From Gracilariopsis chorda (Eukaryota > Rhodophyta > Florideophyceae > Gracilariales > Gracilariaceae), in assembly GCA_003194525.1 (NCBI GenBank), contig NBIV01000163.1:1-64000 (forward strand): DNA of 64,000 bases, written 5' to 3'. Of the stretch, positions 2,376-47,219 are shown piece after piece. The first letter of the stretch is position 1; each line of letters begins with the position of its first letter. The position numbers were made by a program, and so were the translations under genes. A model generated the notes under the pieces. That model was not told where the DNA came from. It saw only the letters and a program-made list of their open reading frames with translations, and did no database searches.

Positions 2376-3038
2376 TGTGAGATAGTGATTCTAATTCACA
2401 CAATTGAAAGTGTCTCCTAGAAGCAGTATCCGCTCGGCGTGCGTAGCGGGGCGTGATGGGTCACGAGATCCGGTAGGGGGGAAGTGATGCGTGGGGACGA
2501 GCGCCAGCACCGGGCGGTCGTAGGAAAGACTGGGCGGTTAGGTACGTGAGGCGCGGTCGAGATACGCGCGAAGAGTCCGAACGGCTTGTAAACCTAGTTG
2601 AGTCCCGTACGGAGTAATGTCTCAGGTCTGCTTTAGAGACAAAAGTAGTTCGGGACGGTGGTGCTTACCGTTTACTGAGTGTGGGTAGCGGGGAGCGAGG
2701 TGCACTAAGTACTGCACCTCGAGCTCAACCTGCACCGCAATCGCTACCCTTCTACTACGTACGGATAAAATTATTAAAATATCTAAGCCTATCGTACAAA
2801 TGCCACCAGCCACGTGGCTACCTGTCCGTCTGGCGCAGCAACCCTGCACCTCAGCCGTCCGGCACGTGTACACCTGTGGGCAATGAGTGCACAACCAATG
2901 GCATTGCCCGCTCCCGTGCACCACTCAACGATTCCGTTCGGCCAATCATAACGTGCCAAACAATCCGCTCGGATACGGTGCTTGAAGGCACTCAAGCACA
3001 CTCTGAAGTGCACTCCCGGGCGGGCCCGCTATACTACA
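2376..3038 (-). repeat. E1 3' LTR
   Basis: 663 bp, TG...CA bounded, more than 99% identical to 12901-13564. One of the differences falls inside a dispersed motif: CCGGTAGG here against CCGGTCGG in the other copy. An AT-rich block at about 2766-2795 could hold the minus-strand promoter. The short open frames inside the LTR appear in both copies and show no domain. Confidence 0.95.
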
Positions 3039-3050
3039 GACCCCCCTCCT
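3039..3050 (-). promoter_or_regulatory. E1 polypurine tract
   Basis: The sense strand immediately upstream of the 3' LTR reads AGGAGGGGGG then TC. All three Gypsy elements keep TC between the purine run and the LTR. It would prime plus-strand DNA synthesis. Confidence 0.8.
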
Positions 3051-3585
3051 AGAGCTCGCTTCGTCCGCGAAGTGCTCCCACACGGTGCTCGGTCTCATAC
3101 GAGCGCTAATCCGACCGGTTTAGAAATTGGCCCGCCCGGGCCGGGGGGGGGGTTATGTCGAATTTTCCCGAACGGACTTCCGACTTCTGCCGCCCACGGA
3201 GCGCTTTCGAAGGCGTATTCAAGTTCGAACGCCGACCGTACGGTCACGGCCCTGGGTGCGGATGCAGGGATCGTACGTGTCAGCGCATTGGACGCTCGGC
3301 TGAAGTTACAACGCGGTGCAACGGCGCGTCGTGTCCTTAGGACTCCTGACGTACGCAGCCAGCGACGGTTCCACGCAAGCGATCGCCTGCCTCCGAACGG
3401 CCGAGCTCTTGCGCGCCGAGCGAAATTCCGCGTCCTCCCACAGCCGCTGTACGAGAGGGATCCATCGAATCAACCGACCGGACACGCACTGACAACGCTC
3501 CCGCGATAGTGCTCTCGCGTTGCATTCGTTACCCGAGCGGCCGTGAACCTCCCGAGAGGCTCACCCCGTTTCCCGATCGGAACAG

Positions 3586-3593
3586 TATAAAAA
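3586..3593 (+). promoter_or_regulatory. TATA box for the antisense ORF of E1
   Basis: TATAAAAA lies 30 bp upstream of the ATG at 3616, on the strand opposite to gag-pol, directly after a CCGATCGG motif. TATA-driven initiation usually starts about 30 bp downstream, so the leader would be very short or initiation lies slightly upstream. It is the only clean TATAAA-type box I saw in this part of the element. Confidence 0.6.
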
Positions 3594-3615
3594 GGGGTGC
3601 TCCGAACTCGTCGAG

Positions 3616-5439
3616 ATGTCCACCGATCGGCACCAATTCGTCACGCCGGACCCCACGCTTGGAGCCCGGTCTGTCATCGCTCCGAATCAGGGAGGAGACT
3701 CGACCGTTTCGGCCAACCCCGCCGCGGACGCGAATCACGCGAGCGGGAGTGCGATTGCCGCGATGCCAAACGCTCCGAGCGGAAACAACCAAGAGAATGC
3801 CCCTCCGGGTCACTCCGTTGATCCGAGCGGGGTATCCATACCGAGGGTCGCGTCTCAGACGCTCCCGCTGCCGCCAACCGGAAGTACGAGCCAGCCGACC
3901 GGAAGCGCGAATCTCCCCGGGACTTTCGCAAGGCCGTTGCCGGGGCAGCAGTACGATCACCGCCTTCGTCGTTCGGGGTCCAGTGGCCAGAACGAGCAGC
4001 CGCCGTACGGTGTGGAGGAGCTGATCAACGCTCCGGACTTGCGCGACTTCCTGGACGCGAAGCGGTTTGCCGCGATTCCCGTACGGCGCTCGTTCTTTGA
4101 GCTAACCGGCCGGAACCCGAAACGTACTCGGGGCGAGGCCTGGGCACAGCGCTGGCGACATCTCCAGGGGATCGCCGGCCTCCAGAGCGACACGACGGTC
4201 GGCCGCTGTGACATGCCCTTCCTCCGGTGCCCGGAGGAGTATCAATGTCAGGCCCGCATGCAGGACCTGATCGGACGTATGGCGACCGATGTGGACTTCC
4301 CCAGTGCGGACAGTAACCCGCTGCAGCTCGTAATGTTTTCCCGACCGTACGACCGGATGTATTGGTTAAATCGTTGCCGTTGGGGCGACAATATCGCAAC
4401 GGAGGCGCGTCTGCGTAGCAACCGTGACGGATACATGTTCTGTTGGCACAACATCGAGTTCTTCGATGTGAGCCCAGCCGATCGGGAGAAGTTGTACGTT
4501 CGGGCTCCCCAGAACTGGGGGGAGTTTGACGTTACCCGTGATTTGTCGGTCATCACCCCGCCCGTCCTGGCCTATTACTCCGGTGAGGTGCTCCGCGACA
4601 GTGCCCTGAGTGAGCGCGTCATGCGCATCGCCATTGCGGAATGGGCCGTGTGCGCTCTGATGGCCTTTCTCCAATCCGTTTCGGAAGGAGTTCGGGTGTT
4701 CACCCGTACGGAGGATCCTCGAGTTAACTTTTTCCGAGGGTTCCCGGGGCAACCGAACACTCGTGAACCGCCCGGGCTTGGGAGATTGTTCCCGTTGCCG
4801 TACGGCTTGGTCTCATTGGTAATCCAGATGGGGCTGGAGAACGTTCTTCGTGGCACCATCTATGCAACCGAGACCGCGCGGAGGTGGCTATACCTGTCGG
4901 TGATGACCGATTGGGTCGTGACCCCAGGCTATCTGTGGTTTGATCCCCGGACGGAAACTTTTCCCGAGATGCCGCGGATTCCCACCGATCCGTTCCCGCT
5001 CACCCATTGTCTCCAGTTGGGCCCCGTACGGCCGCCGTGGGATTTCCCCAACGTGGCCGAATTCGATCCGCTCGGAGGTGTCGCTGCTCAGGCCATGGAG
5101 GTTGCTCCTCCGGAGCCGGAGCGGAGGCTGCCAGGGGCGGGTAGCAAGGAAGTGGGTACCCAGACGGACGACGTGAATCCTGCCGAACGGGCTGTAGCAC
5201 ACCTACCCCGATGGCTGGGGTTGCAACTCCGTCCGGTCAGAGGCCTCCCACCCCACAGCGGGTCAGCCCTGGTTCGGCTAGCCTTCCGGTTCCGGGCGTC
5301 AGTACGCGTGGCCGTACTCGCGGTGCAGCTTCTGCTAGCCGTGGCTGTCGCAGGGGGAGTACGCCTGGCGTTCGTGGCGGCATCTCAAAGACGCAGCCGT
5401 CCTCCGCTCGTAGGGGCCGTTAGTGGGTTGCTAGCATAG
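3616..5439 (+). CDS. Conserved antisense ORF (aORF) of E1, function unknown
   Basis: 607 codons on the strand opposite to gag-pol. Residues 1-130 are rich in S, T, P, N and G and look disordered. A core of about 350 residues from residue 132 is homologous to the antisense ORFs of E2 and E3: FAAIP near the start, DMPFLRC, FCWH (275-278) followed by EFFDV, AEWAVCALMAFL (from about 341), PLPYG, VLRGT, and TPGYLWFD (from about 436). These hydrophobic and Trp/His/Cys positions recur although E1 is distant from E2/E3. No known domain is recognised and no nucleic-acid enzyme motif is seen. The last roughly 75 residues become hydrophobic and Arg-rich, while another frame there (5211-5423) reads as an S/P/R-rich tail, so a late frameshift is possible. 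It could be an accessory DNA-binding, anti-silencing or envelope-replacing protein; the sequence does not decide. Confidence 0.8.
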   Translation: MSTDRHQFVTPDPTLGARSVIAPNQGGDSTVSANPAADANHASGSAIAAMPNAPSGNNQENAPPGHSVDPSGVSIPRVASQTLPLPPTGSTSQPTGSANLPGTFARPLPGQQYDHRLRRSGSSGQNEQPPYGVEELINAPDLRDFLDAKRFAAIPVRRSFFELTGRNPKRTRGEAWAQRWRHLQGIAGLQSDTTVGRCDMPFLRCPEEYQCQARMQDLIGRMATDVDFPSADSNPLQLVMFSRPYDRMYWLNRCRWGDNIATEARLRSNRDGYMFCWHNIEFFDVSPADREKLYVRAPQNWGEFDVTRDLSVITPPVLAYYSGEVLRDSALSERVMRIAIAEWAVCALMAFLQSVSEGVRVFTRTEDPRVNFFRGFPGQPNTREPPGLGRLFPLPYGLVSLVIQMGLENVLRGTIYATETARRWLYLSVMTDWVVTPGYLWFDPRTETFPEMPRIPTDPFPLTHCLQLGPVRPPWDFPNVAEFDPLGGVAAQAMEVAPPEPERRLPGAGSKEVGTQTDDVNPAERAVAHLPRWLGLQLRPVRGLPPHSGSALVRLAFRFRASVRVAVLAVQLLLAVAVAGGVRLAFVAASQRRSRPPLVGAVSGLLA

Positions 5440-6241: not shown

Positions 6242-9200
6242 TCATTTCGTTCGGTTCAGGGGTTTCGGGTTTGATTCCCCCCCTCCTAAAGTGGGGCGCC
6301 TCCGTGCGGCCCGTCGGTTCCAATACCGTGCAACGAAATATTGCGGTATGTGTTCGGGCGGTTCCCATGTGTCATGCCGAGCGGAGTATCCGTGCCAGCG
6401 GACGCGGTATAATCTTCCGTACGGGTGGTTGGCCGATCGGCCGTGGTCGACAATGCGGTCGACAACGGCCAACGTCGTTGGCGGTCGGTTTCCGTTCGGG
6501 GAAGACTCGTGGTCCCGGGCAGGTGTTGTGTCTCCGTTCGGTGAGGTTCCCGCCTTAGGGAGATCCACTCTGCCGTCCGGTTCTGCCAATTCGGTGGCTG
6601 GGGGTGTGTTAGGTGTTAGTGGCCGGGACGTCCGCTTGGAACTATTTGTACCGCTCGGGGTATCTCGCAATTGAGCGGGAGTGCTTCCGGTCAGCGTGTC
6701 TTGGGCATTTCCGTCCGGGGGGCTCCTGCCGTGCGATTTTGACTGCCGAGCGGGGGCCAACGTGACGCGATCGATGCTGACGGTGTCATGAACGCCGTCA
6801 ACGTCGATGGTCACGGTGGTGTCCGTCGCGGATATGATGACGTACGGACCGGTCGTTCTCAATGAAAACTTCCGTGACGTACGTTCGTGCTCCTCCAGGG
6901 CCGCATCGGTCGAAGTAGTAGCCGGGCGGTCTAGAAAGACTTCCTGTCCCAGTCGGAAGGTTGGAGTTAGCCGTACGGATTTATCGAAGTCCTCTTTGTA
7001 ACGCCGTTGCGCAGCGGTGAGGCGATTCCGAGCGGACTGAAGCGTCGTCTTTAAAAGACGTAGAGTGTAACGCTTCATCTGTGCGGGCGTCGGTTGCACC
7101 GGCGTTCGCGGTTCCGTTGCGGAACTGGGCTCATCCAGTATTACGTTCGGCGGGACACGGTTTAACGCCAAATCGAAATGCGTGGTCCAGGTGCTGCGGT
7201 GGACCTGTAGATTATATCCGTACGTAATTGGTTGCACGTAAGCGTGCCAGTTAGACTGGTGGTCTGCGACATAATGTCGCAGTCGTTGCACCAGTGTCTT
7301 GTTAAACCGTTCGGCTTGACCGTTCGTCTGGGGATGATATGCCGTGGTCCGCACGTGCTTTGTCCCCAGTGCGGCGCAGACGTCTTCGAAAAACTTGGAG
7401 ACGAACTGCGGGCCGTTATCGGTAAGTAGGTGGTTAGGAATGCCGTACGGATACGCCCAGTTTTCCAGGAAAGCCCTGGCAACCACGGGAGCTGTGGTTG
7501 ACCGTAGCGGGATAGCGCGGCATAATTTAGAGAACCGGTCGGTAATGACGAGGATATACTCGTAGCCGTTGACGGACTTCGGGAATGGACCGACAATGTC
7601 CATTGCGACAAATTCCAATGGTCCGGCAGCGGGAAACAGCTTGAGTCGCTTCTGCGACCGGTACTGAGTTCCCCGCACGGCAGCGCACGATCGACAGTCC
7701 CGTGCGGTCTGGAACACATCGTTCGCCATTTGCGGCCAGTAGAAATCCCTCCTCAGGGTATTGTGCATGCGGGTCCCGCCCGGGTGCCCTTCCAAGCGCG
7801 GATAGTGCGCGAGATACAGCACGCGCGGTACCAGTGCACGGGGCACCACTCGCTGGAGAGCACCATCCAAGGGGGAGCGTCGGACGATAATTCCGTACCA
7901 GTTCACGTCGAATAGCGTGACACCGTTACCAATGTCCTTCCGCACGGTCTTGCAATATCCGTCTTCGGCCTGGGCTCGGACGAATTCTTCGACCGTGATT
8001 GGCCGGACGTCCGTCTCTTCCTCGACTATTGCGAGGACCTCTGGAATTCCGACCGGGTCATGTCCGCACGGGGTGTCCAGCGTGACGCCTCGGTGCTCCT
8101 GTCCGTCGATGGTGACATCGGCGACCAAATCGTTGTCTTCTTCCGCTCGGTCGGATATCAGGAGGCACGGCACCTCTTCGTCAAGGGGGTTGGTGTCTTC
8201 GCGGTCCGTTCGGATTCGGGAAAGAGCATCGGCTGCCTGATGCTTAACTCCTGGTCGGTGTACGATGTCAAATTCGTACTCCATGAGGCGCAGGCGCCAT
8301 CGTGCTAGCCGACCGGTGGCATCGGCCAGATTGAGTATCCACCGTAATGCGTGGTGGTCCGTGCGGAGTGTGAACCTCTGGCCTTCCAGGTACGGTCGGA
8401 GGTGCAATATCGCCCATACAACGGCGAGACATTCCCGTTCGGTCGTGGTGTAGTCCCGTTCGGGTTTCGACAAAGAACGGCTCCAGTAGCCGATCGGGAG
8501 TAGGTCGCCGTCCGGTTGCTTCTGTAGGAGAACGCAACCTACCTGTTTATCACAGGCATCAGTGTCCAGAACGTACGGCATATCTTGGCGCGGAATTGCC
8601 AAGATAGGCGGTCGAATGAGCCGTTGCCGTAACTCATCGTACGCCTGGTATTCCTCATCGGACAGAGTATCGAAGCAGACCGGTTGGCCTTTCTCGAGCT
8701 TGCGGTTAAGCGGTGCCGCAACTCGAGCGAAATTCTTGACGAACCGGCGGAAGACGTTACACAGGCCTAAGAACGATCGGAGCTCTGTCTGGTTGGTCGG
8801 TGGCTTAGCCGCTCGGATTGCTTCTTGTGTCTTTGTTGACACTTGAAGCTTGCCCGGACGGATGATGTGGCCAAGGTAGTCGACCGTGCTACTGAAAAAG
8901 TGGCACTTGTCCAGACGTAGCGTCACGCCTGCCGATCGGAGTAGGGTCAGAATTGTCCGTACGTGCTCGTAGTGCTCGGTTACCGAACTGGAGTAGATGA
9001 TGACGTCATCAAGGTAGACCAATGCGTACTGCGACTTCACACGGGATAAGATGATATCCAGTGCACGTTGGAACGTTGCCGGAGCATTCTTCAATCCGAA
9101 CGGCATTCGTAAATACCTGAACAGCCCCATGTGTGAGGTGAAGGTAGTCTTGTCCCGATCGGTCTCATCCACTTCCACTTGCCAATATCCGCTATTGGCA

Positions 9201-10630
9201 TCGAGGGTGGTGAATATCTTCGCCTCCCCAAGGGAGTCGATGCATTCATCCATCCTCGGTAGTGGATAGGTATCCCGTACGGTTGCTTTGTTTAGGCGGC
9301 GGTAGTCTACGCAGAAGCGCAGGCTACCGTCCTTCTTCTGAGCAAACACGACCGGGCTGGCCCACTCAGATGTAGAGGGCTCAATAACGCCCTGTCTGAG
9401 CTGCTTTTCGACTTCCGCTCGTTCAAGTTCTCTACGAGCGGGGCCCGCACGGTACGGCATTTGGTAAATTGGCCGCGTGCCGGGTTCCAGCTCAATGCGG
9501 TGTTTTGCCGCTGCCACACGTCCGAGATGGCCGTCCCACATATCCCGGAATGGGCGCAGTAGCTCGACAATCTTCGTCCGTTCGGATTCGTGTTCGGGCG
9601 CCAATTGGATATTGGATATCCAATCGTCCGGATCCTTTGGTGGCGCCTGAACGCGCGGGTTAGCTGCGTTGTCCGTATCGGAAAATGAATTAGGCAAGGG
9701 TCCCCCCTCCTTAGTTTCGTCACTCCGTGACGGAAATTCCGGTGTGATTAACGCGATGGGGGAGGGTAGAGCTAATCCGATGATTGTACGCTTGTGTAAG
9801 CGTACCGGACGGTCGGAAAAGTTCGCCACTTGGACGTAAAATGGTACGTCCGGACGGAGTTCCATGATGCCATTGGCCAGGAGGGTTAACTCCTGCCGGC
9901 TAGCCGAACGGTGATATCCTTGCAAGAATGCAAGGCCGGCCGCCTTGGTGGTTACCCGGACGGATGATTCCGACATGGGGGGTATGACGACCGGTCGGGC
10001 GACCCGTATCTTATTAGAAGGGGTCTTCCGAGTGGTAGCCGGTACGTGCTCTCCCGGCGAGCGAGAGGACCGACCGGCAGAAGATTGAATCGCCACGGGG
10101 TGGGAGTGACGTAAGATTATTGTCCGTTTCGGGGGTAGTATTGCCATGACGTACTTATCGATAAAAGAAGTACCGAGAATACAACTGGCCGCGAGGTTGG
10201 TGGCAACGAGAAAGGGGATCCGAACGGTTAGAGGTCCGATGTGTACGAGTAGGGGAACAACACCACGGATGTTCATACGATTCCGAGAGACATCCGTGAT
10301 GTTGGTGAACGAACGGGATTGGAGATGCTCCTCCCAATTAGGGGGGAGGTTCCGTTCGTGGATGAGGTTAGGGCCAGCGCCGGTGTCAAGTACACCGGTG
10401 AGGGGGTACAAGACCGAGCGGGAGAATCCCACAGAAAAGTTTATCTTATAGTGGGTATTCTTTAAAAGGGCCACTGGGGCTGTCGGCTCATACTCATCCA
10501 CAACGTACAATTCGTCCGGCTTGGGCGAAGAATCTAAACCGTTCGTTCGGGTGAGGCGTTCCGCCCTCGGAGGGGGCGTTGCCTCTACTCTCCCTCCACA
10601 TCGTTTTCCGACTCGGACATGCCGTGATCT
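6242..10630 (-). CDS. pol: E1 Pol: protease, RT, RNase H, integrase, chromodomain
   Basis: The frame is open from 10630 and overlaps the gag end by 43 nt in the -1 frame. There is no ATG near its start, so a Gag-Pol fusion by -1 frameshift is likely. Counting from 10510: aspartic protease DTGAG (42-46), reverse transcriptase with YLDD (499-502), RNase H (LDTDACDKQVG, TDHH), integrase with a His/Cys zinc region (HPGGTRMH...CRSCA) and catalytic motifs VAMDIVGPF, LTDNGPQF and HPQTNGQAERFN, and a C-terminal chromodomain (IVDHG...YRVRWHGY...DTWEP...YFVARYW). The chromodomain places it among chromoviruses, whose integrases are steered to modified histone tails. All catalytic residues seen are intact. 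Confidence 0.95.
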   Translation of the reverse strand, partial: RSRHVRVGKRCGGRVEATPPPRAERLTRTNGLDSSPKPDELYVVDEYEPTAPVALLKNTHYKINFSVGFSRSVLYPLTGVLDTGAGPNLIHERNLPPNWEEHLQSRSFTNITDVSRNRMNIRGVVPLLVHIGPLTVRIPFLVATNLAASCILGTSFIDKYVMAILPPKRTIILRHSHPVAIQSSAGRSSRSPGEHVPATTRKTPSNKIRVARPVVIPPMSESSVRVTTKAAGLAFLQGYHRSASRQELTLLANGIMELRPDVPFYVQVANFSDRPVRLHKRTIIGLALPSPIALITPEFPSRSDETKEGGPLPNSFSDTDNAANPRVQAPPKDPDDWISNIQLAPEHESERTKIVELLRPFRDMWDGHLGRVAAAKHRIELEPGTRPIYQMPYRAGPARRELERAEVEKQLRQGVIEPSTSEWASPVVFAQKKDGSLRFCVDYRRLNKATVRDTYPLPRMDECIDSLGEAKIFTTLDANSGYWQVEVDETDRDKTTFTSHMGLFRYLRMPFGLKNAPATFQRALDIILSRVKSQYALVYLDDVIIYSSSVTEHYEHVRTILTLLRSAGVTLRLDKCHFFSSTVDYLGHIIRPGKLQVSTKTQEAIRAAKPPTNQTELRSFLGLCNVFRRFVKNFARVAAPLNRKLEKGQPVCFDTLSDEEYQAYDELRQRLIRPPILAIPRQDMPYVLDTDACDKQVGCVLLQKQPDGDLLPIGYWSRSLSKPERDYTTTERECLAVVWAILHLRPYLEGQRFTLRTDHHALRWILNLADATGRLARWRLRLMEYEFDIVHRPGVKHQAADALSRIRTDREDTNPLDEEVPCLLISDRAEEDNDLVADVTIDGQEHRGVTLDTPCGHDPVGIPEVLAIVEEETDVRPITVEEFVRAQAEDGYCKTVRKDIGNGVTLFDVNWYGIIVRRSPLDGALQRVVPRALVPRVLYLAHYPRLEGHPGGTRMHNTLRRDFYWPQMANDVFQTARDCRSCAAVRGTQYRSQKRLKLFPAAGPLEFVAMDIVGPFPKSVNGYEYILVITDRFSKLCRAIPLRSTTAPVVARAFLENWAYPYGIPNHLLTDNGPQFVSKFFEDVCAALGTKHVRTTAYHPQTNGQAERFNKTLVQRLRHYVADHQSNWHAYVQPITYGYNLQVHRSTWTTHFDLALNRVPPNVILDEPSSATEPRTPVQPTPAQMKRYTLRLLKTTLQSARNRLTAAQRRYKEDFDKSVRLTPTFRLGQEVFLDRPATTSTDAALEEHERTSRKFSLRTTGPYVIISATDTTVTIDVDGVHDTVSIDRVTLAPARQSKSHGRSPPDGNAQDTLTGSTPAQLRDTPSGTNSSKRTSRPLTPNTPPATELAEPDGRVDLPKAGTSPNGDTTPARDHESSPNGNRPPTTLAVVDRIVDHGRSANHPYGRLYRVRWHGYSARHDTWEPPEHIPQYFVARYWNRRAARRRPTLGGGESNPKPLNRTK

Positions 10631-12843
10631 TCAACGGCCATTATTGAGCGGTTGACGTGATCGTATGCAGGAGGTTTCCGTTCGGAGTCTGCTGACCCAG
10701 GGGTCCGGACCCCAATGCTGGACCGACCGGGAGTGTTACGGTTGTAGTAACCCTCTTCTTTGCGAAGTTGGTAGTTTTGTTCCCGAGCGGCTAGCAGAGC
10801 ATCCCGAACGTTCGGATGGATCATTTGACAGTGGTCCGGTTCCCGTGACAGACAAATCCGACACGGTTTGTCCATCAACTGCTTCCCGTCCAGCTGTCGG
10901 TTTGTTGGTGCCCGAGCGTCAGCAGGCTTATAAAAATCCGATCGGGAGGGTCCCGAACGGTACGAGGTCGTCGCGGTTGACGGCGTCGTGGGGAGTGATG
11001 GGGCGGAGCCGACCGGGGTAAATGCCAGGACGGCCTCACCGTCATCGGTGTCGGAGGCTACCGAATCCGTACGGCTCCCCATGCTTAGGACACTCCGACG
11101 GTCTGTACGAGCGGCCACCCTTTTCCCCGTGGGATGGGGAAGGGAGTCAAGCCGAACGGATTGTCGTCGTACCGAACGGCTGGTGTCGCCATACGATTCG
11201 GCATACCTCGCCAACGCATCATAGCCGATGGACGGATGCGTCGTAAGGTGATTTCTCACCTTCGCCCGAATGGAAGGAAGTAATCCTTCCACGAATAGGG
11301 ACTTTAAACGCCGGTCGGAGAATACATTGCCGCAACGGAGGGCCTTGTTCCACAGCTTCTGTGAATACTCCGTTTCGGACATACCCGACGACTGACGGTA
11401 GAGGGTGACCTCAGAGTACGCGTCGGCAATTATTTCATCCGTTGCGTACGTTGTCAATAAAAAGTTGACGACTTCGGAGTATGAGCGGAGCATCTCGCCA
11501 CGTCGTACATCCACGGCGCCCGAATCTCCCATGAGCCGTGACTGGATCAGTGAGTGAGCCGGTCCGGTCAGGTAGAATTGGAAGCACCATACCGCTGCTC
11601 CCTCGGACAGTCCGTTATGGTTACAGGCGGTCTTGAACCGCTGTAAAAAGTTTAGAACGGATATCGGATCCGCTCCGGAAAACGAATGTCCCTTCATCTG
11701 GACATTCAGTTTCTTCTGGTAGCGCGTAATCTTACGCGCGACTCGCGAGTTGTACGATTGGCTACGATTGGTTAGCCGGTACGTACGATAATTCACCACC
11801 CTGGTGAACAATTCGTTCAGTGGTTTGATGCGCCGAGGCGCGGATCTTTCCGAACGGGAACGATACCGGTCGGAGCGGCCTCTGCGGCCAGAACGGTCGG
11901 AGTCTGAGTCGCTATCAGTTCCGGAAACGGCATCGGAACTATCCGAGCGGTCAGAATCAGTATCCGAACCGGAGGAATGTCGCTTTTTCCTGCGGCGACG
12001 ATTCTTCCGTGCGCGGCGAGGGCGATCCGTGTCGGACTTGTCAGCTCTGCCGCCCCTGTCACGGCGGCCCCCTCTTCCCTCGTTAGAAGAGGAGCTGTCT
12101 GAATTTCCGTTCGGATCATCTCGGTGGGGTTCCACCGGGAGGACTGGGACCATGGGGGCACTCTGATGGCCCCCTTCTGGGTGGGGTTCCTCATCCCGTC
12201 CGGTGTGTAATTGGGCTTGGTCCGGTCGGCCAAGGGAAAACTTTGGAAGGGGTGGCAGCGTTGTCGCTTCCATATAAACTGCCGTACGGTCCTCGTGCTT
12301 CATGGCACCAAGTCCGGTCGGAAGGAGCTGCTGAAGGATTGCCTCGGTGGTCTGGCGGACCGTCGGGGTAATCAGTTCTGCCAGCAGTTCTGGCAGGCGC
12401 TCCTGCAGGTAGCGCTCAACCCGAACGGGGACACGAGCAGCAAGCTCGCTCTTCAGCTTGTAACCCCAATAGGGCTCGAGCTGCTTCCACAGTTCTGGGA
12501 GCGTCCGTGCGGGAATTTCGGCTGCCACTAGGCCGGTCGGAGTGGTGAGTAGAGGGAGCGGTGCTGCACCCTCTGGGTTCATTGACGGGCCTAAATTCCG
12601 GTCGGTAGGCGTTTGAGAAGCCCGGGAGGAGCGAGGAGCTTTGCGCACGAGCACCTCGGGGTTCTCCAATCGGACGTCCGGAGCTGGTGCAGTGCTACGG
12701 GTGCTGCGGCGGTCAACCGAGGCATTGTCCGAAGCGGTCTGCATTGGTGGCTCGCCGGACGGAGCCAATTCTTTTTCGACATCGACCCTTGCGGTCGACT
12801 CCACGTTTGCGTCACGTGTCTGCATCTCGTGTTCGTTATCCAA
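10585..12843 (-). CDS. gag: E1 Gag
   Basis: 752 residues. After a variable N-terminus comes a long R/S/D/E-rich stretch (about residues 235-335), then a retrotransposon capsid-like region (FSGADPISVLNFLQRF...EGAAVWCFQFYL...YRQSSGMSETEYSQKLW...GLLPSIRAKVRNHL) homologous to the Gag of E2, E3 and E4. Near the C-terminus there is no classical CCHC knuckle but a Cys/His cluster CRICLSREPDHCQMIH, with spacing shared in part by E2. The protein would form the particle and bind RNA. It ends at TAG 10585-10587, in a TAGAGGC context also found at the gag stops of E2 and E3. Confidence 0.93.
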   Translation of the reverse strand: MDNEHEMQTRDANVESTARVDVEKELAPSGEPPMQTASDNASVDRRSTRSTAPAPDVRLENPEVLVRKAPRSSRASQTPTDRNLGPSMNPEGAAPLPLLTTPTGLVAAEIPARTLPELWKQLEPYWGYKLKSELAARVPVRVERYLQERLPELLAELITPTVRQTTEAILQQLLPTGLGAMKHEDRTAVYMEATTLPPLPKFSLGRPDQAQLHTGRDEEPHPEGGHQSAPMVPVLPVEPHRDDPNGNSDSSSSNEGRGGRRDRGGRADKSDTDRPRRARKNRRRRKKRHSSGSDTDSDRSDSSDAVSGTDSDSDSDRSGRRGRSDRYRSRSERSAPRRIKPLNELFTRVVNYRTYRLTNRSQSYNSRVARKITRYQKKLNVQMKGHSFSGADPISVLNFLQRFKTACNHNGLSEGAAVWCFQFYLTGPAHSLIQSRLMGDSGAVDVRRGEMLRSYSEVVNFLLTTYATDEIIADAYSEVTLYRQSSGMSETEYSQKLWNKALRCGNVFSDRRLKSLFVEGLLPSIRAKVRNHLTTHPSIGYDALARYAESYGDTSRSVRRQSVRLDSLPHPTGKRVAARTDRRSVLSMGSRTDSVASDTDDGEAVLAFTPVGSAPSLPTTPSTATTSYRSGPSRSDFYKPADARAPTNRQLDGKQLMDKPCRICLSREPDHCQMIHPNVRDALLAAREQNYQLRKEEGYYNRNTPGRSSIGVRTPGSADSERKPPAYDHVNRSIMAVEDHGMSESENDVEGE
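10603..10609 (-). promoter_or_regulatory. Candidate -1 frameshift site in E1 gag-pol overlap
   Basis: In the gag frame the sense strand reads G GAA AAC seven codons before the gag stop. The equivalent positions are G AAA AAC in E2 (19807-19813) and G GAA AAT in E3 (39606-39612). Pol lies in the -1 frame in E1 and E2. The heptamer is not the perfect X XXY YYZ pattern, but the A-site can re-pair with AAA. Confidence 0.45.
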
Positions 12844-12880
12844 AACGTTCTAAAATCCGTACGGAAAGTCACGAGTCCCA

Positions 12881-12899: not shown

Positions 12900-12900
12900 G

Positions 12901-13564
12901 TGTGAGATAGTGATTCTAATTCACACAATTGAAAGTGTCTCCTAGAAGCAGTATCCGCTCGGCGTGCGTAGCGGGGCGTGATGGGTCACGAGATCCGGTC
13001 GGGGGGGAGGTGATGCGTGGGGACGAGCGCCAGCACCGGGCGGTCGTAGGAAAGACTGGGCGGTTAGGTACGTGAGGCGCGGTCGAGATACGCGCGAAGA
13101 GTCCGAACGGCTTGTAAACCTAGTTGAGTCCCGTACGGAGTAATGTCTCAGGTCTGCTTTAGAGACAAAAGTAGTTCGGGACGGTGGTGCTTACCGTTTA
13201 CTGAGTGTGGGTAGCGGGGAGCGAGGTGCACTAAGTACTGCACCTCAAGCTCAACCTGCACCGCAATCGCTACCCTTCTACTACGTACGGATAAAATTAT
13301 TAAAATATCTAAGCCTATCGTACAAATGCCACCAGCCACGTGGCTACCTGTCCGTCTGGCGCAGCAACCCTGCACCTCAGCCGTCCGGCACGTGTACACC
13401 TGTGGGCAATGAGTGCACAACCAATGGCATTGCCCGCTCCCGTGCACCACTCAACGATTCCGTTCGGCCAATCATAACGTGCCAAACAATCCGCTCGGAT
13501 ACGGTGCTTGAAGGCACTCAAGCACACTCTGAAGTGCACTCCCGGGCGGGCCCGCTATACTACA
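12901..13564 (-). repeat. E1 5' LTR
   Basis: 664 bp, the partner of 2376-3038. On the sense strand it starts TGTAGTATAG and ends CTCACA, directly followed by the primer binding site. Confidence 0.95.
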
Positions 13565-16999: not shown

Positions 17000-17524
17000 T
17001 GTAGGAGAATGACCATTGGGCGGATGCAGTGGTGAGGTAACCATGGGGCTGGGCTGGCAGAGTTCAAAACATTGCTGGCCAAAATATTCCACGTGGCCAA
17101 GCTGGGTGCCTATGCAGGGGATACGATGGGACAGTGCGAGTGCTAAGGCACTGTGGCCATAGGTTTTATCATGTAGCTAATTTTATTTAGCTTGTTAGGA
17201 TAGTTCCGAAGCTCAGAGCGCCTCGCCACCTAGATAACTTGGCTCGAGTGGCGCCGATCTCTGAAGTGTAAAGACAAGCACCCTCACCGTCTTCTTGCCG
17301 CCATATGCAGCCAGTAGGACTCCAAAGGCCTCGAAGCCATCGTTACCATTCTCCCGACCTGTAGGGACTTGAGATAGTGCCCGCCCATTGCGCCTCGCTG
17401 CCAGTTGGTGCCCGCGTCACTAGTACACTCAGTGGATTGTCACCCCAGTGGTTGGCTCTCTGCCGCTACTACCCCCTAGTAGACTACTACCCCAGTTGAC
17501 CAAAGGACGTAGTATTCTACTACA
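17000..17524 (+). repeat. E2 5' LTR
   Basis: 525 bp, starts TGTAGGAGAATG and ends TTCTACTACA. Its central part is closer to E3's 3' LTR than E3's own 5' LTR is. Confidence 0.92.
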
Positions 17525-19920: not shown

Positions 19921-22900
19921 ATGACAGGGGTCTTGAGTCGGGTGTATGCTGTAGACCAATGGGAAGACCTGGAGAACGCTTTTTGTGTCCTAAGGAAGGA
20001 TAACTACAAGGTACAGGGAACCTTGGGACTACAGGCCAATACCGCGAGGACTTTTACTGCCGTATTGGATACTGGAGCAGGCCCCAATCTGGTACATCCG
20101 AAGGTCTTACCATTGGGCTGGGAAAGGATGATACAGGAAAAGAAGTCACCGAAGGTAACGGAGGCATCAGGTTGGCCGATGAACATTCGCGGAATACTTC
20201 CGCTTTACGTCCAATTGGGTCACCTGAGGGTTAAGACTTGGTTTCTTGTATGTCCGAACCTGGGGGCAGAACGGATCCTAGGGACAAGCTTTATTGATAG
20301 ATATGTAAAGGCAATCTATCCTGGCCAAAATAGGGTCGCTTTCCATCGAGGACCACCATTGGCGATTGTGGGCTCGCGCCCTGGACCCGAGGCTGCCCAG
20401 CTAAGGTCAAGTTTCCCACAAGGACCGTGTTCAACAAGGTCAGATTGGCAAAAGCGATATTCATACCGCCTATGACCCAGGTAGCCGCTGCAGCGGTATG
20501 TGAGTCCTCAGGTCTGGTTTTGTTGCAATACCATCCCAAGTTGGTAACGAAACACCTTTCCCTCATGGCCAATAGACTAATGAATGTGGTACCCAAGCGG
20601 CCCTTTGCGGTCACCATGAGCAACTTCCGTGACAAGCCTACAAGCCTGCCCAAGGGTGCAGTGGTGGGGGTATCTATGACTGCTCCAGTGGCCATTATGG
20701 AGATTGATGCAGAGAGGTTGCTTCCTGAGGGTGAACCACCTGCCGATTGGGAAAATGACGTCAACCTTGGCGATGACTTTGAACCACATAGGAAGCAAGT
20801 CATTGATCTCCTCAAGGTCTTTGCTAGCATGTGGAGTGGAAAGCTGGGCGAGATCGATGCCAAAGGCATCGAATTGACCTTAAGAACGGGGCCAGACACC
20901 AATATCAGCATCCATATCGGACTGTCCTAAAAGAACGAGAGGTGGTAGCCAAGGAGGTTGAGAAAATGAAGTCCGCTGGGGTCATTGAGCGTGCACCATC
21001 CACTGAGGCCGAATGGGCTAGCCCTTTTGTCATCGTTGCCAAGGAGGACGGGACAGTACGGTTTTGTATTGATTACCGCAAACTAAATGCGGTGACCAAG
21101 AGGGATACTTACCCTATCCCCCGTATGGACGACTGCTTAGATTCTCTTGGGGACGCGCAAATTTTCACCACGTTGGATGCCAATCGTGGGTATTGGCAGG
21201 TTCCCATGGACGACAAGGCGAAGTCGCTGACTACCTTCACGAACCACGAGTGATTATTTCGATTTACACGGATGCCCTTTGGTCTTATGAATGCGCCAGC
21301 TACTTTCCAGCGGGCCATGGACATCATTTTGTCCAGGGTCAAATGGAAGTTCGCCTTGGTCTACCTGGATGATGTGATCATCTTTTTCAAGTCCATTAGG
21401 GAACACTTCGCACATGTGAAGGCAGTCCTTAGGTTACTCCAGCAGGCTGGTGTCACACTGAAATTGAAGAAGTGTTTATTCTTCCAGCCCTCCGTGGACT
21501 ACCTTGGCCATGTGGTCCTGCCGGGTAAGCCCCAAGTGGCCCAAGTTACAACAAAGGCCATACGGGAAGCGCAACCCCCTAGGATCCATACAGAATTGCG
21601 CTCCTTCCTTGGCCTTTGTAATGTTTACCGTAGGTTTGTCCCAGGTTCCGCGAAAATTGCAGCACCTCTCAATGAGATGCTGAAGAAAGGGACCCCTTCG
21701 GAATTTGACGACCTCATGGACGAGCAGTATGAGGCCAACCAGAACTTCAAGGACAATTTGGTTAATCCGCCGGTCTTGGCGCTACCCAAGGCCAATAAAC
21801 CGTATATCCTAGATACGGACGGATCTGCAACCCAAGTGGGCTGTGCCCTTCTACAAGAGCAGGAGTTCCCTAAGTATTATCGCCCAATTGGCTACTGGAG
21901 TAGGTCTCTGACCAAGGCCGAAAGGAACTATAGCACCACGGAAAAGGAATGTTTGGCCATCGTGTGGTCGGTGCTCCATCTTCGGCCTTATTTGGAAGGA
22001 ACTCGCTTTACCATTAGGACAGACCACCACTCCCTCCACTGGCTACTGAATATGACGGATGCATCCTCCCTTCTGGCCCGATGGAGATTGCACCTGGCCG
22101 AAGTCGATTACGAAGTGACCTTTAGGCCATGGTGGAAACATCAGGCCGTAGATGCGCTGTCACGCATCCTGACCGATGGTACGGACCAAACTCCCTTGGA
22201 CGATGAGATCCCTACCATCTGGGACGGACCACAGTACACTGATGACGAGGGAGAGGAACCAACGGTGGCTGAGGTGAGAATGGCCGAATGGACGGACGGA
22301 CACGGCGCAGCGATCTTATGCGCCGTGGACTGGGAAGATCCACCGTTGAATACCTATATGGCCCAGTCGGAAAGCGCGGATCTTACGCCAATACCCCTCG
22401 AGGAATTCCTTCAGACCCAGAAAACGGACGAATACTGTGCCCAGATAGGAGAGAAAGTAGGGACCTCTGGGTCGCTGTTTGATTATGACCGCCGAGGCAT
22501 ATTATGTCGCAGGTCACCATTGGACGGGGCGATACAGCGGGTAGTGCCTAAGGCCTTACGGGCACGCCTTCTTTACCTCTCGCAGTATCCGAGGTTGGCT
22601 GGCCATCCTGGAGGGACTAAGATGTATCGGACCCTGAGGAGATACTTTTACTGGCCCCTGGTAGCCAATGACATAATGGAGACCGCAAGGACTTGTGCAG
22701 CACGCGCAAAGATCCGACGGACAAGAGCGGTACACCAAGGGAAACTGAAGTTATTCCCAGCGGCCGGGCCTTTGGAGTTCATTGCTATGGATATCCTAGG
22801 GCCATTTCCGAAGTCGACCCACGGCAACCGCTTTATATTGGTGATTACCGATCGGTTTACCAAATTGACCCGAGCAATCCCGCTCAAATCAATAACCGCC

Positions 22901-24160
22901 ACGGACGTCTCCATGGCTTTCCTTGTCCATTGGATTTATCCCTATGGACTGCCGCTCTATCTTTTTACGGACAATGGCTCTCAGTTTATCTCCAAATTCT
23001 TTGAGCATGTGTGCTCGGCCTTAGGTCTAAAACATCTCCTCACCACCGCGTACCGTCCTTAGACCAATGGAGAAGCCGAAAGGTTTAACCGAACCTTGGC
23101 CAAGAGGCTAATTCACTACGTTTCCAAGCACCAATTGGACTGGGATGACTATGTCCAGCCTCTGGTCTATGCATATAATAATCAAGTGGATAAGTCCACT
23201 GGTACAACTCCTTTTGATCTCACCCTCATACGGGCCCCTGCGCCGTACATGGTTGACCTACAGGACTTAGGAGCACCTCATGACATAACGGAGGAAATGA
23301 CTCCCACCCAGGCCAAACGGTATTCGCGGAAGCGAATTGATTCTATCTTGAGAGCCACACAGACCACGTTGGATAAAGCGCAAGCGCGCTATAAGGCCCA
23401 TTTCGATCGGTCCGTTTGGTTTAAACCGCAGGTGGCCGGGGGAGATTACGTCCAATGGGACAGACCACCGAAGGAAAAGCCCGAGGACGAGGACATCACC
23501 AAGAAGCTGTTACCAAGGTCCACTGGGCCCTTCAAGGCCCTTAAGTCCCTTGGGCACACGGTTACTATCGACCGAGATGGGCTCCAGGACACAGTCACAA
23601 TGGACCGAGTGTCCCTGGCGCCACGCCCACCTTCAACTGAACCAATGGACTCGCGCGCTTTCCCTTCGTCCCAAACCCCACCCTCCATCCCTACGCAACC
23701 ACGGATCAATTGCCCTACAAGCCCTCAGGAACCGCAGGTCTCCGCGGATCCACAAGGCCCTTACCCCGATGGCTACGGTTCCCTGGATGAAATGGTACTT
23801 CCTAAAGAAGTACCCGACCCTATGGAAACCTACGACGCGGTTCCTTCGGACGCTGACGGGTACGGTCCCCTCGACCAGATGGACCTACCGGAGGACGCCG
23901 GAATGAACGACAAACGGGAGTATGTCGTCGACTGCATCGTCTCCGCTGGGCTTATCGACGATAGCGAAGTGCGCTACAAAGTCCTTTGGTATGGCTATGA
24001 GCCCAAGGAAGATACTTGGCTGCCGAGGTCAGACATCCCGGATTTTTTTGTGGCCCGCTATTGGTCAAAAACAGGCCACACGGAGCGTGACCTTAAGGAG
24101 GGGGGTATCCCTGGCCACAAATTTGCCCCAGCACGGGCCCAATCCGCCTTCACCCAATAG
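19921..24160 (+). pseudogene. pol: E2 Pol with chromodomain, broken
   Basis: Protease DTGAG is in the first frame. Comparison with E3 shows single-base losses near 20400 and near 20865, then stops at 21251-21253 (TGA, before the RT MPFGLMNAP block) and 23060-23062 (TAG, inside the integrase block before TNGEAERFN). RT YLDDVIIF, RNase H DTDGSATQVG and TDHHSLHWLL, integrase DNGSQF and a chromodomain (VDCIVSAG...YKVLWYGYEPKEDTWLP...FFVARYW) remain readable. The integrase zinc region has CAAR where E3 has CAVC, so one zinc-binding Cys is lost. The frame before the first ATG is open back into the gag end in the -1 frame. Confidence 0.92.
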
Positions 24161-24515: not shown

Positions 24516-26351
24516 CTAGGACGACGCAGCCGGTTGAGAAGGGGATCCCATGCGGGCGCGCTTGGGAACCGGACTCTGGGCGGAAGAGGACGAGGCACCA
24601 CCAGCGGACTCCGTGTCCGAAAGGTTGAGACCAAAGCGGTTATCAAGGTCTGTCGCGACACGCTTGGACAACACCTTAGAGTTATCCTTTAGGATGGTCG
24701 CTAAGGCGTCTTTGACCTCTTGGTTACGCTGAATCAGCGAGTGGTACCGCGAAGCCCAGCGAGCCCAGGATTGGGCGGAACTAAGAGCCTCTACGATACT
24801 AGTGGGTTCAAGGATAACGACGGACGTGTATACCTTCTTCAGGTCATCGAAGGCCATCGTAAGGACCTCTGGAATGACCGGCATGGGAGGCAGAGGAGGG
24901 ACCAAAGGGGCGGAAACCGTCATGGACGTAGGAGGTGGGGAAGCCAAGGGACCGATGGACGCCTCTGGGAGCTCTTCCACGGCAACCTCATGCACCGGCA
25001 CGAACGTCGGCGGTACCGATGGGGCCGGTACAGGAACTACCGCCTGCTCCCGGACTGGAGGACGAAGATAATCTTCGTGGAACCCAATGGCATGAGGATA
25101 GTAGTCCGGCACGGACTGACGTGGCTCGTTCACGGGGACAGCAAGCAATGGTTTGGCCTGGTAAACGTTCCGGTCTTCATTGCCTAAAGGATGTCGCGGA
25201 ATCGGAAAAAAGTTGTCGGTGTCATAATCGTACCAAAGGAACCCGGGGGTCTGCGCCCAGTCGACCTGAAGGACATAATCCAATAGGGCCTCGGCCTCTT
25301 CACTCTCGTACTCCGTACCCCGGACAATGTTCTGCACTCCCAACTCACGGATGAGCTGGATCAAGGGCCGCGGAAGGGGCACCAGTCGGCCTTCAGGACT
25401 GCGAAGAACCCGCTCGTTCCAGATACGGAAGTCGGCCTCCCGGACGTTAGCTTGGACACCATAGCGGGCGGTATCCAGAAAGGCTATCAAACAGAACACG
25501 GCCCATTCGGCAAAAAGAACCTGCCAGGTCCGCCAGGGGAGACGTTTAGTGAAGTCCTCCTGGAGCTGATAGGTATGGTAGGCCACCACGGGCGGAGTAG
25601 GGTCCATAAGGAGATTGGAAACGTGCCAGATGGCAGCCTTAGGTCCGGCGCTAAGTGACGGTAGCATGAGATATAGAGAAGACATGCGGGACGGAGGCAT
25701 ATCGTGAAATTCCACTTGGTGCCAACAGAAGAAGTACTTCAGGTTAGTTCGAATACAACCATCGGATTCGATCATATCATTTCAATAGGTCCGGTTCGAT
25801 AACCAGTGCAAGCGGTCGTATGAAGGTCTGAAGCAGACTAACTCCAGGAGGCTATGACCAGGGGGAGGAAAGGGGGCCTTAGGGTCACCATGCATCGAAT
25901 ACAAGTCCTCCAGGAGCTTTTTGACTCTCCATTGGTAATCAGACTCCTCGCCGCAGCGGACGAAGGGCATATCCGGTGGGACCAGAGCGCGGCAACGCGC
26001 GACCGAACGGGCATGAGCAGGAAGGTGGAGCCAACGGTTGTACCAGGAGTTCTCTTGGGAGTTCTTCTTCGCACGGGCATATTTGGGGATCGCAGCGAAC
26101 TGCCGGGCGTCCAAGTATTGATCAGCATACCGCACGAACTCGGCGACCGAGCTGGGTAGATGGGTACACCTCACGGCCATAGGATTCTGACCCAAAGTGT
26201 GGTCGTACTTGTCCCCGGGGTGGACATATGCGCTGCTGGGGACCAGAGCCATGTTGGTCGAGTATACAGTTATTGCAACCCCAGGGATACGCTCGAAGCC
26301 GTCATAGTCCAAGAGGTAGCCATGGGAGCCCTTATATGCACCCGAGGACAT
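24516..26351 (-). pseudogene. Conserved antisense ORF (aORF) of E2, one internal stop
   Basis: A single minus-strand frame of 612 codons is interrupted once by TGA at 25779-25781, where E3 has TGG. It contains the conserved aORF core: DARQFAAIP, DMPFVRCGEE, FCWHQVEFHDM, FAEWAVFCLIAFL, GRLVPLPRPL, NIVRGTEY and TPGFLWYDYDT. A Pro/Val/Thr-rich linker and a C-terminal helical region (LIQRNQEVKDALATIL) follow, ending in a Ser-rich tail with the basic patch PKRARM, which could be a nuclear signal. In-frame similarity to E3 continues upstream of 26351 to about 26420, where another stop occurs. There is no frameshift, unlike pol of the same copy. Function is unknown. Confidence 0.78.
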
Positions 26352-26878: not shown

Positions 26879-27404
26879 TGTAGAAGAATGACCATTGGGC
26901 AGAAGCAGTGATGAGGTAACCATGGGGCTGGGCTGGCAGAGGTCAAAACATTGCTGGTCGAAATATTTCACGTGGCCAAGCTGGGTGCCTATGCAGGGGA
27001 TACGAGGGGGCAGTGCGACTGCCAAGGCACTGTGGCCATAGATTTTATTATGTAGCTAATTTTATTTAATTTATTAGGATAGTTTCCGGAGGTCAGAGCG
27101 CCTCGCCAGCCATATATCCTGGCTCCAGTGCCACCGATCTCTGAAGTGTAAAGACAAGCACCCTCACCGTCTTCTTGCCGCCGTATGCAGCCAGTAGGAC
27201 TCCAAAGGCCTCAACGCCATCGCTACCATTCTCCCGACCTGTAGGGACTTGAGATAGCGCCCGCCCATTGCGCCTCGCTGCCAGTTGGGGCCCGCGTCAC
27301 TAGTAGACTCAGTGGATTGTCACCCCAGTGGTTGGATCTCTGCCGCTACTACCCCCTAGTAGACTACTACCCCAGTTGACCGAAGAACGTAGTATTCTAC
27401 TACA
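26879..27404 (+). repeat. E2 3' LTR
   Basis: 526 bp partner of 17000-17524. It is preceded by the polypurine run AAGGGGAGAGG (26866-26876) and TC. Confidence 0.92.
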
Positions 27405-36789: not shown

Positions 36790-37314
36790 TGTAAGAGAAT
36801 GACAATCGGGTAGGCGGAGTGGTGAGGTAACCAAGTGGACGGGCAGGCAGAGATCAGACCATTGCTGGCCTACATATTCCACGTAGATGAGCTGGGGGCC
36901 GGTGCGGGGGACTTCAGGGCACAGTGCAAGTGCCAGGGCATGTTGTCCATAGGTTTGATTTTGTAGTTAATTTTATTTAATGTTTTAGGATAGTTCCGGA
37001 GCTCAGAGCGCCTCGCCAGCTAGATAAGTTGGCTCGAGTGCCGCTGACCTCCAAAGAGTAAAAGCAAGCCCCATCGCCGTCTTCGTGCCGCCATATGCTG
37101 CCAGTAGGACGCCAAAGGCCTTCAAGCCATCGCTACCATTCTACCGACCTGTACAAACTTGAGATAGTACCCGCCCATTACGCCTCGCTGCCAGTTGGTG
37201 CCCGCGTCACTAGTAGAATCAGTGGATTGTCACCCCAATGGATGGCTCACTACCGCTACTACCGCTTAGTATACTACTACCTAAGTTGGCAAAAGAACGT
37301 AGTATTCTAGTACA
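36790..37314 (+). repeat. E3 5' LTR
   Basis: 525 bp, starts TGTAAGAGAATGAC and ends TTCTAGTACA. Its central part differs strongly from the 3' LTR of the same element. Confidence 0.9.
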
Positions 37315-44329: not shown

Positions 44330-46552
44330 CTACAACGTCGCGGCCCGCTGATAAGGGGACCTTGTGCGCGTGCCCTTACGGTCTTGACTCCGGGCTGATT
44401 GGGACGAGGCTCCACCAGAGGAGTCCGTGTCCGAAAGGTTTAAGTCCAAACGGTTGCCCAGGTCCGTCTTGACGCTCTCCGACAACACCTTTGCGTTGTC
44501 CTCCAGGATGGGCACCAACGCGTCTCTAACCTCTTGGTTACGTTGCATCAAGAAGTGGTACCGCGAGGCCCGTCGAGCCCATGATTGGGTGGCAGGGAGA
44601 GGCTCAACAATGCCAGCGGGTTCAAGAACACCCACGAATGTGCATACCTTCTTCAAGTCGTCAAATACCAGGGTAATGGCCTCAGGTATAACTGGCGCAT
44701 GGGGAGCAGGAGTGACCAAGGGAGCGGACACCGTCAGGGAAGTGGAGGTTTGCGGAACCAGGGAACCAGTGGATACCTCTGGAGGCTCTATCGACTCGTT
44801 ATTGCAAGCTGGCACGTGTGACAGCGCAACTGACGGGGCCGGTACTGGAACTGCTACTTCCTCCTGGACAGGAGGACGAAGACAACCCGCGTGGAATCCG
44901 ATGGCCTGTGGATAGTAATCTGGTACGGACTGGCGCGGTTCATTCCCGGGGACAGCCAGCAATGGTTTGGCCTGGTATACATTTCCATCGTCATGGCCGA
45001 GAGGGTGTCGCGGAATAGGAGAAAAGGTTTCAGTGTCGTAATCGTACCAAAGGAAACCGGGGGTCTGCGCCCAGTCGACCTGAAGGACATAATCCAATAA
45101 GGTCTTGGCCTCTTTCCCTCCGTACTCCGTACCCCGGAAGATGTTTTGCACCCCCAACTCACGAATGAGCCGGATTAAGGGCCGCCGCAGGGGCACGAGT
45201 CGGCCTTCAGCACTGTGGAGCCCTGGCTCATGCCAGATACGTTAGTCGGCCTCCCGGACGTTCGCCTGGACTCCATAGCGGGCAGTATCCAAAAATGCCA
45301 TGAGACAGAAGACGGCCCAATCGGCGAAGAGCACCTGCCAGGTCAACCACAGGAGACGCCTGGTGAAGTCTTCCTGGAGGTGGTGGGTGTGATAAGCCAC
45401 AATGGGTGGAGTGGGGACCACAATGAGATTCGAAACGTGCCAAATGGCGGCTTCATGGCCTGCACTAAGCGCAGGCAAGGAAAGGTATAAGGAAGACCTG
45501 CGGGAAGGAGGCATATCGTGAACTTCCACCTGGTGCCAACAGAAGAAGTACTTTAAGTTAGCTCGGATGCGCCCATCTGGTTCGATCATATCATTCCAAT
45601 AGGTCCGGTTGCATAGCCAGTACAGGGGGTCGTATGGGGGCTTGAACTACACCAGTCCGAGAAAGTCATGACCCGGAGGAGGGAAGGGGGCCTTGGAGTT
45701 GCCATGCATCGAATACAAGTCCTCCAGGAGCTTGTTTACTCTCCATTGGTAATCGACCTACTCGCCACAGTAGACAAACGGCATGTCGGGGGGGACCAGG
45801 GTGCGGCATCGCGCGACCGAACGGGCATCGGCAGGAAGATGGAGCCAGCGGTTGTACCAGGAGTCCTCTTGGGAATTCTTCTTCTCGCGAGCGTAGTTTG
45901 GGATGGCAGCGAACTGACAGCCGTCCAAGTATTGGTCAGCATATCGCACGAACTGTGCAACCGAGCTGGGCAGATCGGTACTCCTCATGGCCATGGGATT
46001 ACGACGCAAGATGTGGTCATATATGTCCCCGGGATGTGCATAGACACTGCTGGGTACGAGAGCCATGTTGGTTGAATCTAACTTGATGGCCACCCGTGGG
46101 ATTCGTTCGAAGCCATCATAGGCCATCAGGTAAGCATGGGAGTCTTTATACGCCTCCGGAGACATGAAATAGACGCGATGGACGAGCCAGCCCAGCGGAC
46201 ACGGTGCACAGCGAAGCCAACGGTCTGGAACGTGAAAGACCAAAGGAATACCACTACGGGTACGAAAGGGTCGAGGATGATGAATGAACCAAGGCGGAAC
46301 GTGGGGAAAGGCGAGGCCGAAAGGACGAGGGAATCCGAAGGGAGGTTTTGGCGACCGCCAAAGGGGTGGGGGGAACGCAAGAGCACGGAGCGTGCCCTGA
46401 GATGGATGCTCAGTACGGGAGGAGACGCCGTCGCAGGCAACCAATGGCATGGTAGCGGCCACGTGCCACTTGCCGAAAAAACGCCCAAATGGACGCACGA
46501 CGGTACCTCTGCCATACGGAGCGCAAGAGGGCTGGTGGGCCATTTCACCCAA
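44330..46552 (-). pseudogene. Conserved antisense ORF (aORF) of E3, three stops, no frameshift
   Basis: 741 codons in one uninterrupted minus-strand frame with stops at 45755-45757, about 45650 and 45242-45244. It contains an N-terminal Pro/Phe-rich segment of about 125 residues, then the aORF core (ERIPRVAI, DGCQFAAIP, DMPFVYCGE, FCWHQVEVHDM, FADWAVFCLMAFL, GRLVPLRRPL, TPGFLWYDYDT) and the C-terminal helical/Ser-rich tail (LMQRNQEVRDALVPIL). It matches E2 along its length and E1 in the core. Lack of frameshifts, while gag and pol of the same copy are shifted repeatedly, is notable. Function unknown. Confidence 0.75.
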
Positions 46553-46694: not shown

Positions 46695-47219
46695 TGAAGG
46701 AGAATAAACATCGGGTAGGCGGAGTGGTGAGGTAACCACGGGGATGGACAAGCAGAGATCAGACCATTGCTGGCGGAAATATTCCACGTGGCCACGCTGT
46801 GTGCCTATGCAGGGGATACGAGGGGACAGTGCGAGTGCCAAGGCACTGTGGCCATAGGTTTTATCATGTAGCTAATTTTATTTAACTTGTTAGGATAGTT
46901 CCGAAGCTCCGAGCGCCTCGCCACCTAGATAACTTGGCTCGAGTGGCGCCGACCTCCGAAGAGCAAAAGCAAGCACCATCGCCGTCTTCTTGCCGCCATA
47001 TGCTGCCAGTAGGACACCAAAGGCCTCCAAGCCATCGCTACCATTCTCCAGACCTGTAATGAATTGAGATAGCACCCGCCCATTGCGCTTCGCTGCCGGT
47101 TGGTGCCCGCGTCACTAGTAGACCCAGTGGATTGTCACCCCAATGGCTGGCTCTCTGCCGCTACTACCCCCTATTATACTACAACCTAAGTGGGCCAAGA
47201 GATTTAGTACTCTACTACA
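46695..47219 (+). repeat. E3 3' LTR
   Basis: 525 bp, starts TGAAGGAGAATAAAC (TG kept) and ends CTCTACTACA. Positions about 46780-46940 match E2's 5' LTR almost base for base. Confidence 0.9.

Follow-up and report, generated by a model that had tools for sequence, protein, structure and literature searches.

An antisense accessory gene of chromodomain Gypsy elements in the red alga Gracilariopsis chorda, and copies that have lost it

Accessory genes on the strand opposite to gag-pol are known from several LTR retrotransposons, and PMC7264820 calls their function not known. In the same text, gene23 of the maize Gypsy element Grande is described as antisense, placed between pol and the 3' LTR, preceded by an upstream promoter and coding for a nuclear protein (PMC7264820). 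Retand, a non-chromovirus lineage of flowering plants, carries an antisense open reading frame (aORF) with a Transposase_28 domain (PF04195) in 97% of the clusters of recent elements; its function is given as unknown, and a regulatory role is proposed (PMC11963269). In fungi, the element Boty of Botrytis cinerea has an antisense gene, brtn (as cited in PMC8365987). The plant chromovirus Tekay possesses a 5'aORF whose product is described in PMC11728184 as conserved, proline-rich and partly disordered, with a C-terminal nuclear signal, and the same paper attributes to the aORF protein of VANDAL a sequence-specific protection from silencing. No such gene was reported in red algae in the titles and abstract openings surveyed, in which subscription papers are thinly covered.

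The window analysed here, 64,000 nucleotides of the Gracilariopsis chorda genome, holds three Gypsy elements, E1, E2 and E3 (table 1). The original prediction described in each of them a frame of 600–740 codons antisense to gag-pol, between the end of pol and the 3' LTR. Place and strand hold for all three, and the E1 frame is open; however, one internal stop in E2 and three in E3 mean that neither of these frames is open today. The start assigned to the E3 frame, 46552, was 129 codons too far out, as the ATG homologous to that of E2 lies at 46165. The motifs said to be shared (FAAIP, DMPF, FCWHxxE, A[ED]WAV, RGT and TPG[YF]LW) do follow one another in the same order in the three proteins, the last being TPGYLW in E1 and TPGFLW in E2 and E3. 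With the E1 protein as query, the E3 and E2 frames are matched at E-values of 8e-51 and 6e-50, which excludes a chance likeness.

Table 1. Features of the three Gypsy elements in the window (element sense of E1 is the minus strand).
Feature	Positions	Strand	Remark
E1 target-site copies, 5 bp	2371-2375 and 13565-13569		AACAT
E1 3' LTR	2376..3038	-	
E1 candidate PPT	3039..3049	-	purine-rich tract adjoining the 3' LTR; read from sequence
TATAAAAA, TATA box	3586..3593	+	candidate own promoter of the E1 antisense gene
E1 antisense accessory gene	3616..5439	+	607 codons, ATG start, open
E1 antisense protein, conserved core	3916..5040	+	residues ~101-475; from alignment
E1 pol	6242..10510	-	protease, RT, RNase H, integrase, chromodomain
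E1 pol chromodomain	6314-6466	-	
E1 gag	10585..12843	-	called by position; without Pfam match
E1 5' LTR	12901..13564	-	
E2 5' LTR	17000..17524	+	
E2 pol remains	21272..24160	+	part of RT, RNase H, integrase, in two frames
E2 chromodomain	23921-24067	+	
E2 antisense gene	24516..26351	-	one internal stop
E2 antisense protein, C-terminal basic motif	24552-24563	-	KRAR
E2 3' LTR	26879..27404	+	
E3 5' LTR	36795..37314	+	
E3 antisense gene	44330..46165	-	three internal stops; start moved from 46552
E3 3' LTR	46700..47219	+	

E1, which spans 2376-13564, is a young element: its LTRs are 99.25% identical over 667 aligned bases, with TG...CA ends, and it is flanked by a 5-bp target-site copy. E2 and E3 are both older (LTR identity of 92.8% and 85.5%, respectively) and broken in several frames. 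Over the antisense stretch of E1, the six frames contain 0, 18 and 15 stops on one strand and 10, 13 and 12 on the other, and the longest open reading frame in simulated first-order Markov DNA (2000 sequences of 3.2 kb) reached 434 codons, with a 99% point of 278. An open frame by chance was thus rejected, on the grounds of the 607 codons of E1 against this maximum and of the selection described below. Compared with the 824-aa copies of the protein, that of E1 is 97% identical across the first 526 residues; approximately 0.6 kb is deleted near 5190, leaving a C-terminus that is shortened and out of frame. The sequence TATAAAAA sits 30 bases 5' of the E1 ATG and is found at that place in the E1 subfamily only. 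Indeed, a TATA box at -30 was detected in two of ten upstream regions, both of this subfamily, L025 having one only at -432/-430. A further copy (L001, G000:C101) is identical to window positions 2116-5500, flank included. As the E1-type frame of C101 has the same flank, it represents one insertion in a duplicated contig and no second event; the assembly is therefore partly duplicated, and copy counts in the genome are inflated to some degree.

The rest of the window contains a frame of 534 aa, likely a host gene, that carries three RNA recognition motifs (54227-55828, minus strand), a frame of 658 aa with cysteine-rich stretches of the TNFR/ephrin-receptor-like type, nine in number (58366-60339, plus strand), and a frame matching the prolyl oligopeptidase and alpha-beta hydrolase families (52082-53230, plus strand). 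The last lies in a segment of strongly negative GC skew (-0.32 over 52001-54000).

The antisense frame is a genuine protein gene under long-term selection at the protein level, as measured in subfamilies C and D. The E2 and E3 genes (1836 bases each) align without gaps and are 78% identical, versus 64-66% for the two flanking spacers, and their differences fall 96/78/226 on the three codon positions. The dN/dS ratio is 0.17 over the gene (dN 0.144, dS 0.827), with 0.12 in the core and 0.32 in the tail, whereas the flanking spacers read as coding give 1.12 and 1.02; for the same pair, parts of pol yield 0.23 and 0.40, and the presumed gag part 0.40. A frame kept open by coding on the sense strand, which the original prediction had proposed to check, was rejected: the three sense frames across the gene contain 20, 33 and 29 stop-bearing codon pairs (E2 versus E3), including sense frame 2, which has the third codon position in common and a ratio of 0.34, yet carries the 33. 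Within subfamily C, ratios of 0.12 (L025/L049, dS 0.54) and 0.18 (L025/L050, dS 0.62) were obtained, and groups C and D compared with each other give 0.25 at a dS above 2. Three deep pairs have no dS owing to saturation, and groups E1, E and F offer saturated or near copies only, so that the strength of selection is measured in C and D only.

Near pairs present another picture, with ratios of 1.04 (E1/L046), 1.32 (L025/L035), 0.98 (L034/L031), 0.88 (L034/E2), 0.72 (L034/L030), 0.46 (L030/E2) and 0.51 (L049/L050), values of 0.35-0.59 for group B pairs and 0.64 for a group F pair, and six nonsynonymous changes against zero synonymous for L025/L036. The dN/dS comparison suggested by the original prediction is thus low between lineages of subfamilies C and D, but about 1 or above among the youngest copies, and the constraint is visible along lineages only. 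We read this as selection acting on the lineages that keep moving, followed by drift after insertion.

The gene is widespread in the genome of G. chorda. At least 72 matches were retrieved with the E1 protein (the best 72 of 953 candidates scored), and 96, 67 and 87 with three further protein queries; these sets overlap, and one copy can yield several matches. They form at least five subfamilies, in groups named E1, B, C, D (with E2 and E3), E and F, and most cores of the other groups share 33-55% identity with the core of L025 (group C). At loci L009-L028, an opposite-strand pol match lies on the 3'-end side of the antisense gene in 20 of 20 cases, this match being limited to the protease-RT part at L018 and the 3' LTR not being delimited per locus. 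The carriers display the Gypsy order RT-RNase H-integrase followed by a C-terminal chromodomain, the latter detected in all four elements with a pol C-terminus scanned (E1, E2, L025 and L009).

Among the candidates scored in a search of 5.8 billion proteins, which relies on shared 5-residue words and scored the best ~8000 candidates for two of the three queries, five relatives were found (P0004-P0008). P0004 is an 824-aa homologue from G. chorda itself (BWQ96_10536); P0005 is 43% identical to the E1 protein and, by eye, almost the same as L009 (group B). P0006 and P0007 are full length, 44% identical to L025 and 52% identical to each other. P0008, in which the N-part of a bacterial DnaA is joined to a C-terminal stretch of the antisense family that matches P0006, probably stems from a chimeric contig. 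No relative of the protein was detected in viral contigs or in bacterial and archaeal genomes.

The antisense gene and the integrase have diverged together. Over 19 of the 20 elements (L018, without an integrase piece, was left out), integrase and antisense-core distances correlate with r = 0.975 (Spearman 0.86), a value of r reached by none of 2000 permutations and inflated because 10 of the 19 elements are near-identical group B copies. In both trees E2 and E3 are paired, L028 joins the pair with support of 0.56 and 0.83, followed by the L025-type copies; the placement of E1 and L027 in the integrase tree is without support (0.04). As divergence tracks the integrase, a recent capture of the gene was rejected.

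The protein comprises a low-complexity N-terminus, a core of ~370 residues, a proline-rich linker, a second conserved region and a tail. The tails of 12 frames fall into five with KRxR at most 45 residues from the end (L025, L034, E2, P0006 and P0007), five RG-rich ones (P0004, L046, L009, L015 and P0005), that of E3, which is degraded, and that of L027, without basic motif. We take the KRxR and RG-rich tails as a hint of a nuclear signal. The lack of likeness to any family, expected from the sequence by the original prediction, was borne out by the profile searches and structure prediction that it called for. No Pfam family, PF04195 included, matched at E up to 1 in any of the 16 members of A1 or in P0006 and P0007, and membership of Transposase_28 was accordingly rejected. 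NCBIfam returned no relative; of the three PDB sequence searches, the first gave a single match at E 0.07, the second was empty and the last gave four matches at E 1.1-2, which we all attribute to chance, and PHROGs gave one match at E 0.22. The AlphaFold model of the core of the homologue L025 is fair (pTM 0.82) and mainly helical, with low-confidence ends, whereas that of the full E1 protein, built with 16 sequences, is poor (pLDDT 43.5, pTM 0.42) and was left out of the fold search. No solved or viral fold matched the L025 core model, and capsid or envelope folds gave no match above chance. The core and the second conserved region are predicted to be helical, and the modelled core to adopt a fold without recognised match.

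Natural loss of the gene was observed in group C, where 12 copies keep it (9 of them without stops) and 18 others share one common junction with a 12-base overlap, at which ~1.94 kb has been removed; these counts are lower bounds, and duplicated contigs (one pair seen) may distort both. The deletion extends from ~180 bases 5' of the ATG to approximately codon 580 of 735, so that the start and the core are gone. Compared with a full copy, the deletion copies are 97-100% identical in the LTR-side flank, 98-100% in the pol-side flank and 92-97% in the 38-base stub at the junction. They are located at G000:C216, C253, C101, C195, C61, C28, C37, C241 and ten other places. Their pol is without stops in all eight found (8 of the 18 copies) among the best 33 pol candidates, a set taken best first, which favours intact pol. 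Two other, different deletions of the gene occur at C292:3085-4380 and C4:510175-511392. Since 18 copies spread without its start and core, an element can spread without having the antisense gene in cis. The deletion copies mean that its protein is either shared in trans, restraining or dispensable there.

On balance, we think it probable, by a modest degree, that the gene encodes a trans-acting nuclear accessory protein of this chromodomain Gypsy family. It would be transcribed separately from gag-pol, and its product would enter the nucleus and there target, in trans, nucleic acid or chromatin belonging to the same family, possibly in regulation, against silencing or as an aid to integration; as long as full copies supplied the protein, those without the gene could go on spreading. 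What favours help in trans is the persistence of the gene across the six groups, with strong constraint where this was measured. Points that weigh against this reading are the TATA box at -30 confined to the E1 subfamily, the tail of L027 without basic motif and the degraded one of E3, the ratios near 1 among the youngest copies, and the lack of a fold or family match that would indicate a molecular activity. However, the deletion copies leave room for a protein that could be wholly unneeded, or a brake. Restraint is the main rival reading: the protein, alone or with antisense RNA, would lower the transposition of its own element and protect the host lineage, its loss freeing bursts. Deletion copies outnumber full ones (18 with one junction against 12), which leans this way, as do the open pol in the eight whose pol was listed and the two additional, unlike deletions. 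A brake, however, is expected to be lost often and fast, and such losses are hard to reconcile with dN/dS ratios of 0.12-0.25 within and between C and D and with the presence of the gene in all six subfamilies seen; moreover, the copy numbers are lower bounds with possible duplicated contigs, and shorter elements may win by size alone. We therefore regard restraint as unlikely.

The other explanations appear less probable still. A component of the particle or pre-integration complex, structural or env-like and no regulator, would be compatible with the mainly helical core and low-confidence ends of the predicted model; yet the antisense position would imply transcription separate from gag-pol, the tails are basic or RG-rich, and the absence of any capsid or envelope match above chance makes such a role improbable. 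Descent from the plant antisense aORFs (Transposase_28/TRP28 of Retand, Grande gene23), by inheritance or transfer and with divergence past recognition, would account for the shared place and strand and for the nuclear hint, as for gene23, but the missing PF04195 match in the 16 A1 members, P0006 and P0007, and the chromodomain of the carriers against a Retand described as non-chromovirus, render it very improbable. That the gene is a recently captured host gene or a nested transposon is highly improbable: although an extra antisense gene could arise by capture or insertion, this one has co-diverged with the integrase across subfamilies whose cores lie 0.49-0.67 apart, and the five relatives among the candidates scored include no named host gene with a known function. 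Least credible of all is a role of the antisense RNA alone, through dsRNA or siRNA control, with a frame that is incidental or sense-constrained. Convergent transcription may be expected to produce dsRNA, and PMC7264820 considers this role in the case of plant aORFs; however, the codon-position pattern, the low ratios in C and D, the neutral spacers and the absence of an open sense frame refute it as the sole function.

A wider picture, which we put forward as tentative and rather unlikely, is that of an ancient red-algal chromovirus lineage in which an antisense protein of new fold would exert self-control in trans, the series of deletions recording repeated escape or parasitism. As gene loss occurs beside intact copies in one genome, help in trans and restraint are directly testable against each other.

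Compared with the systems described above, E1–E3 have the arrangement named aORF-3R (an antisense aORF between pol and the 3' LTR), and the gene is antisense beyond the end of pol at the 20 loci. It thus shares place and strand with Grande gene23, a likeness drawn from description, Grande being plant-hosted and the red-algal carriers having a chromodomain. The arrangement is likewise that of Retand, but the red-algal protein lacks PF04195 and its carriers bear the chromodomain. Boty brtn, again by description, is of the same kind in a fungal host. Tekay, also likened by description, combines a chromodomain with an extra protein, its frame lying 5' of gag-pol. The anti-silencing protein of VANDAL, a plant DNA transposon, may offer a functional parallel. 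The separate invention envisaged by the original prediction is therefore supported for the protein, which has no match to Pfam (Transposase_28/TRP28 included) or to known folds, and falls for the arrangement, which was recognised already. Only the protein family and the host group appear new, together perhaps with the chromodomain-bearing carrier. To antisense accessory genes known from plants and a fungus is thus added a red-algal chromodomain case, in which the antisense gene of the one pair measured (E2/E3) is under selection no weaker than that on pol. That this selected protein is unrelated as far as sequence searches go suggests several origins of such genes, and a recurring need for them.
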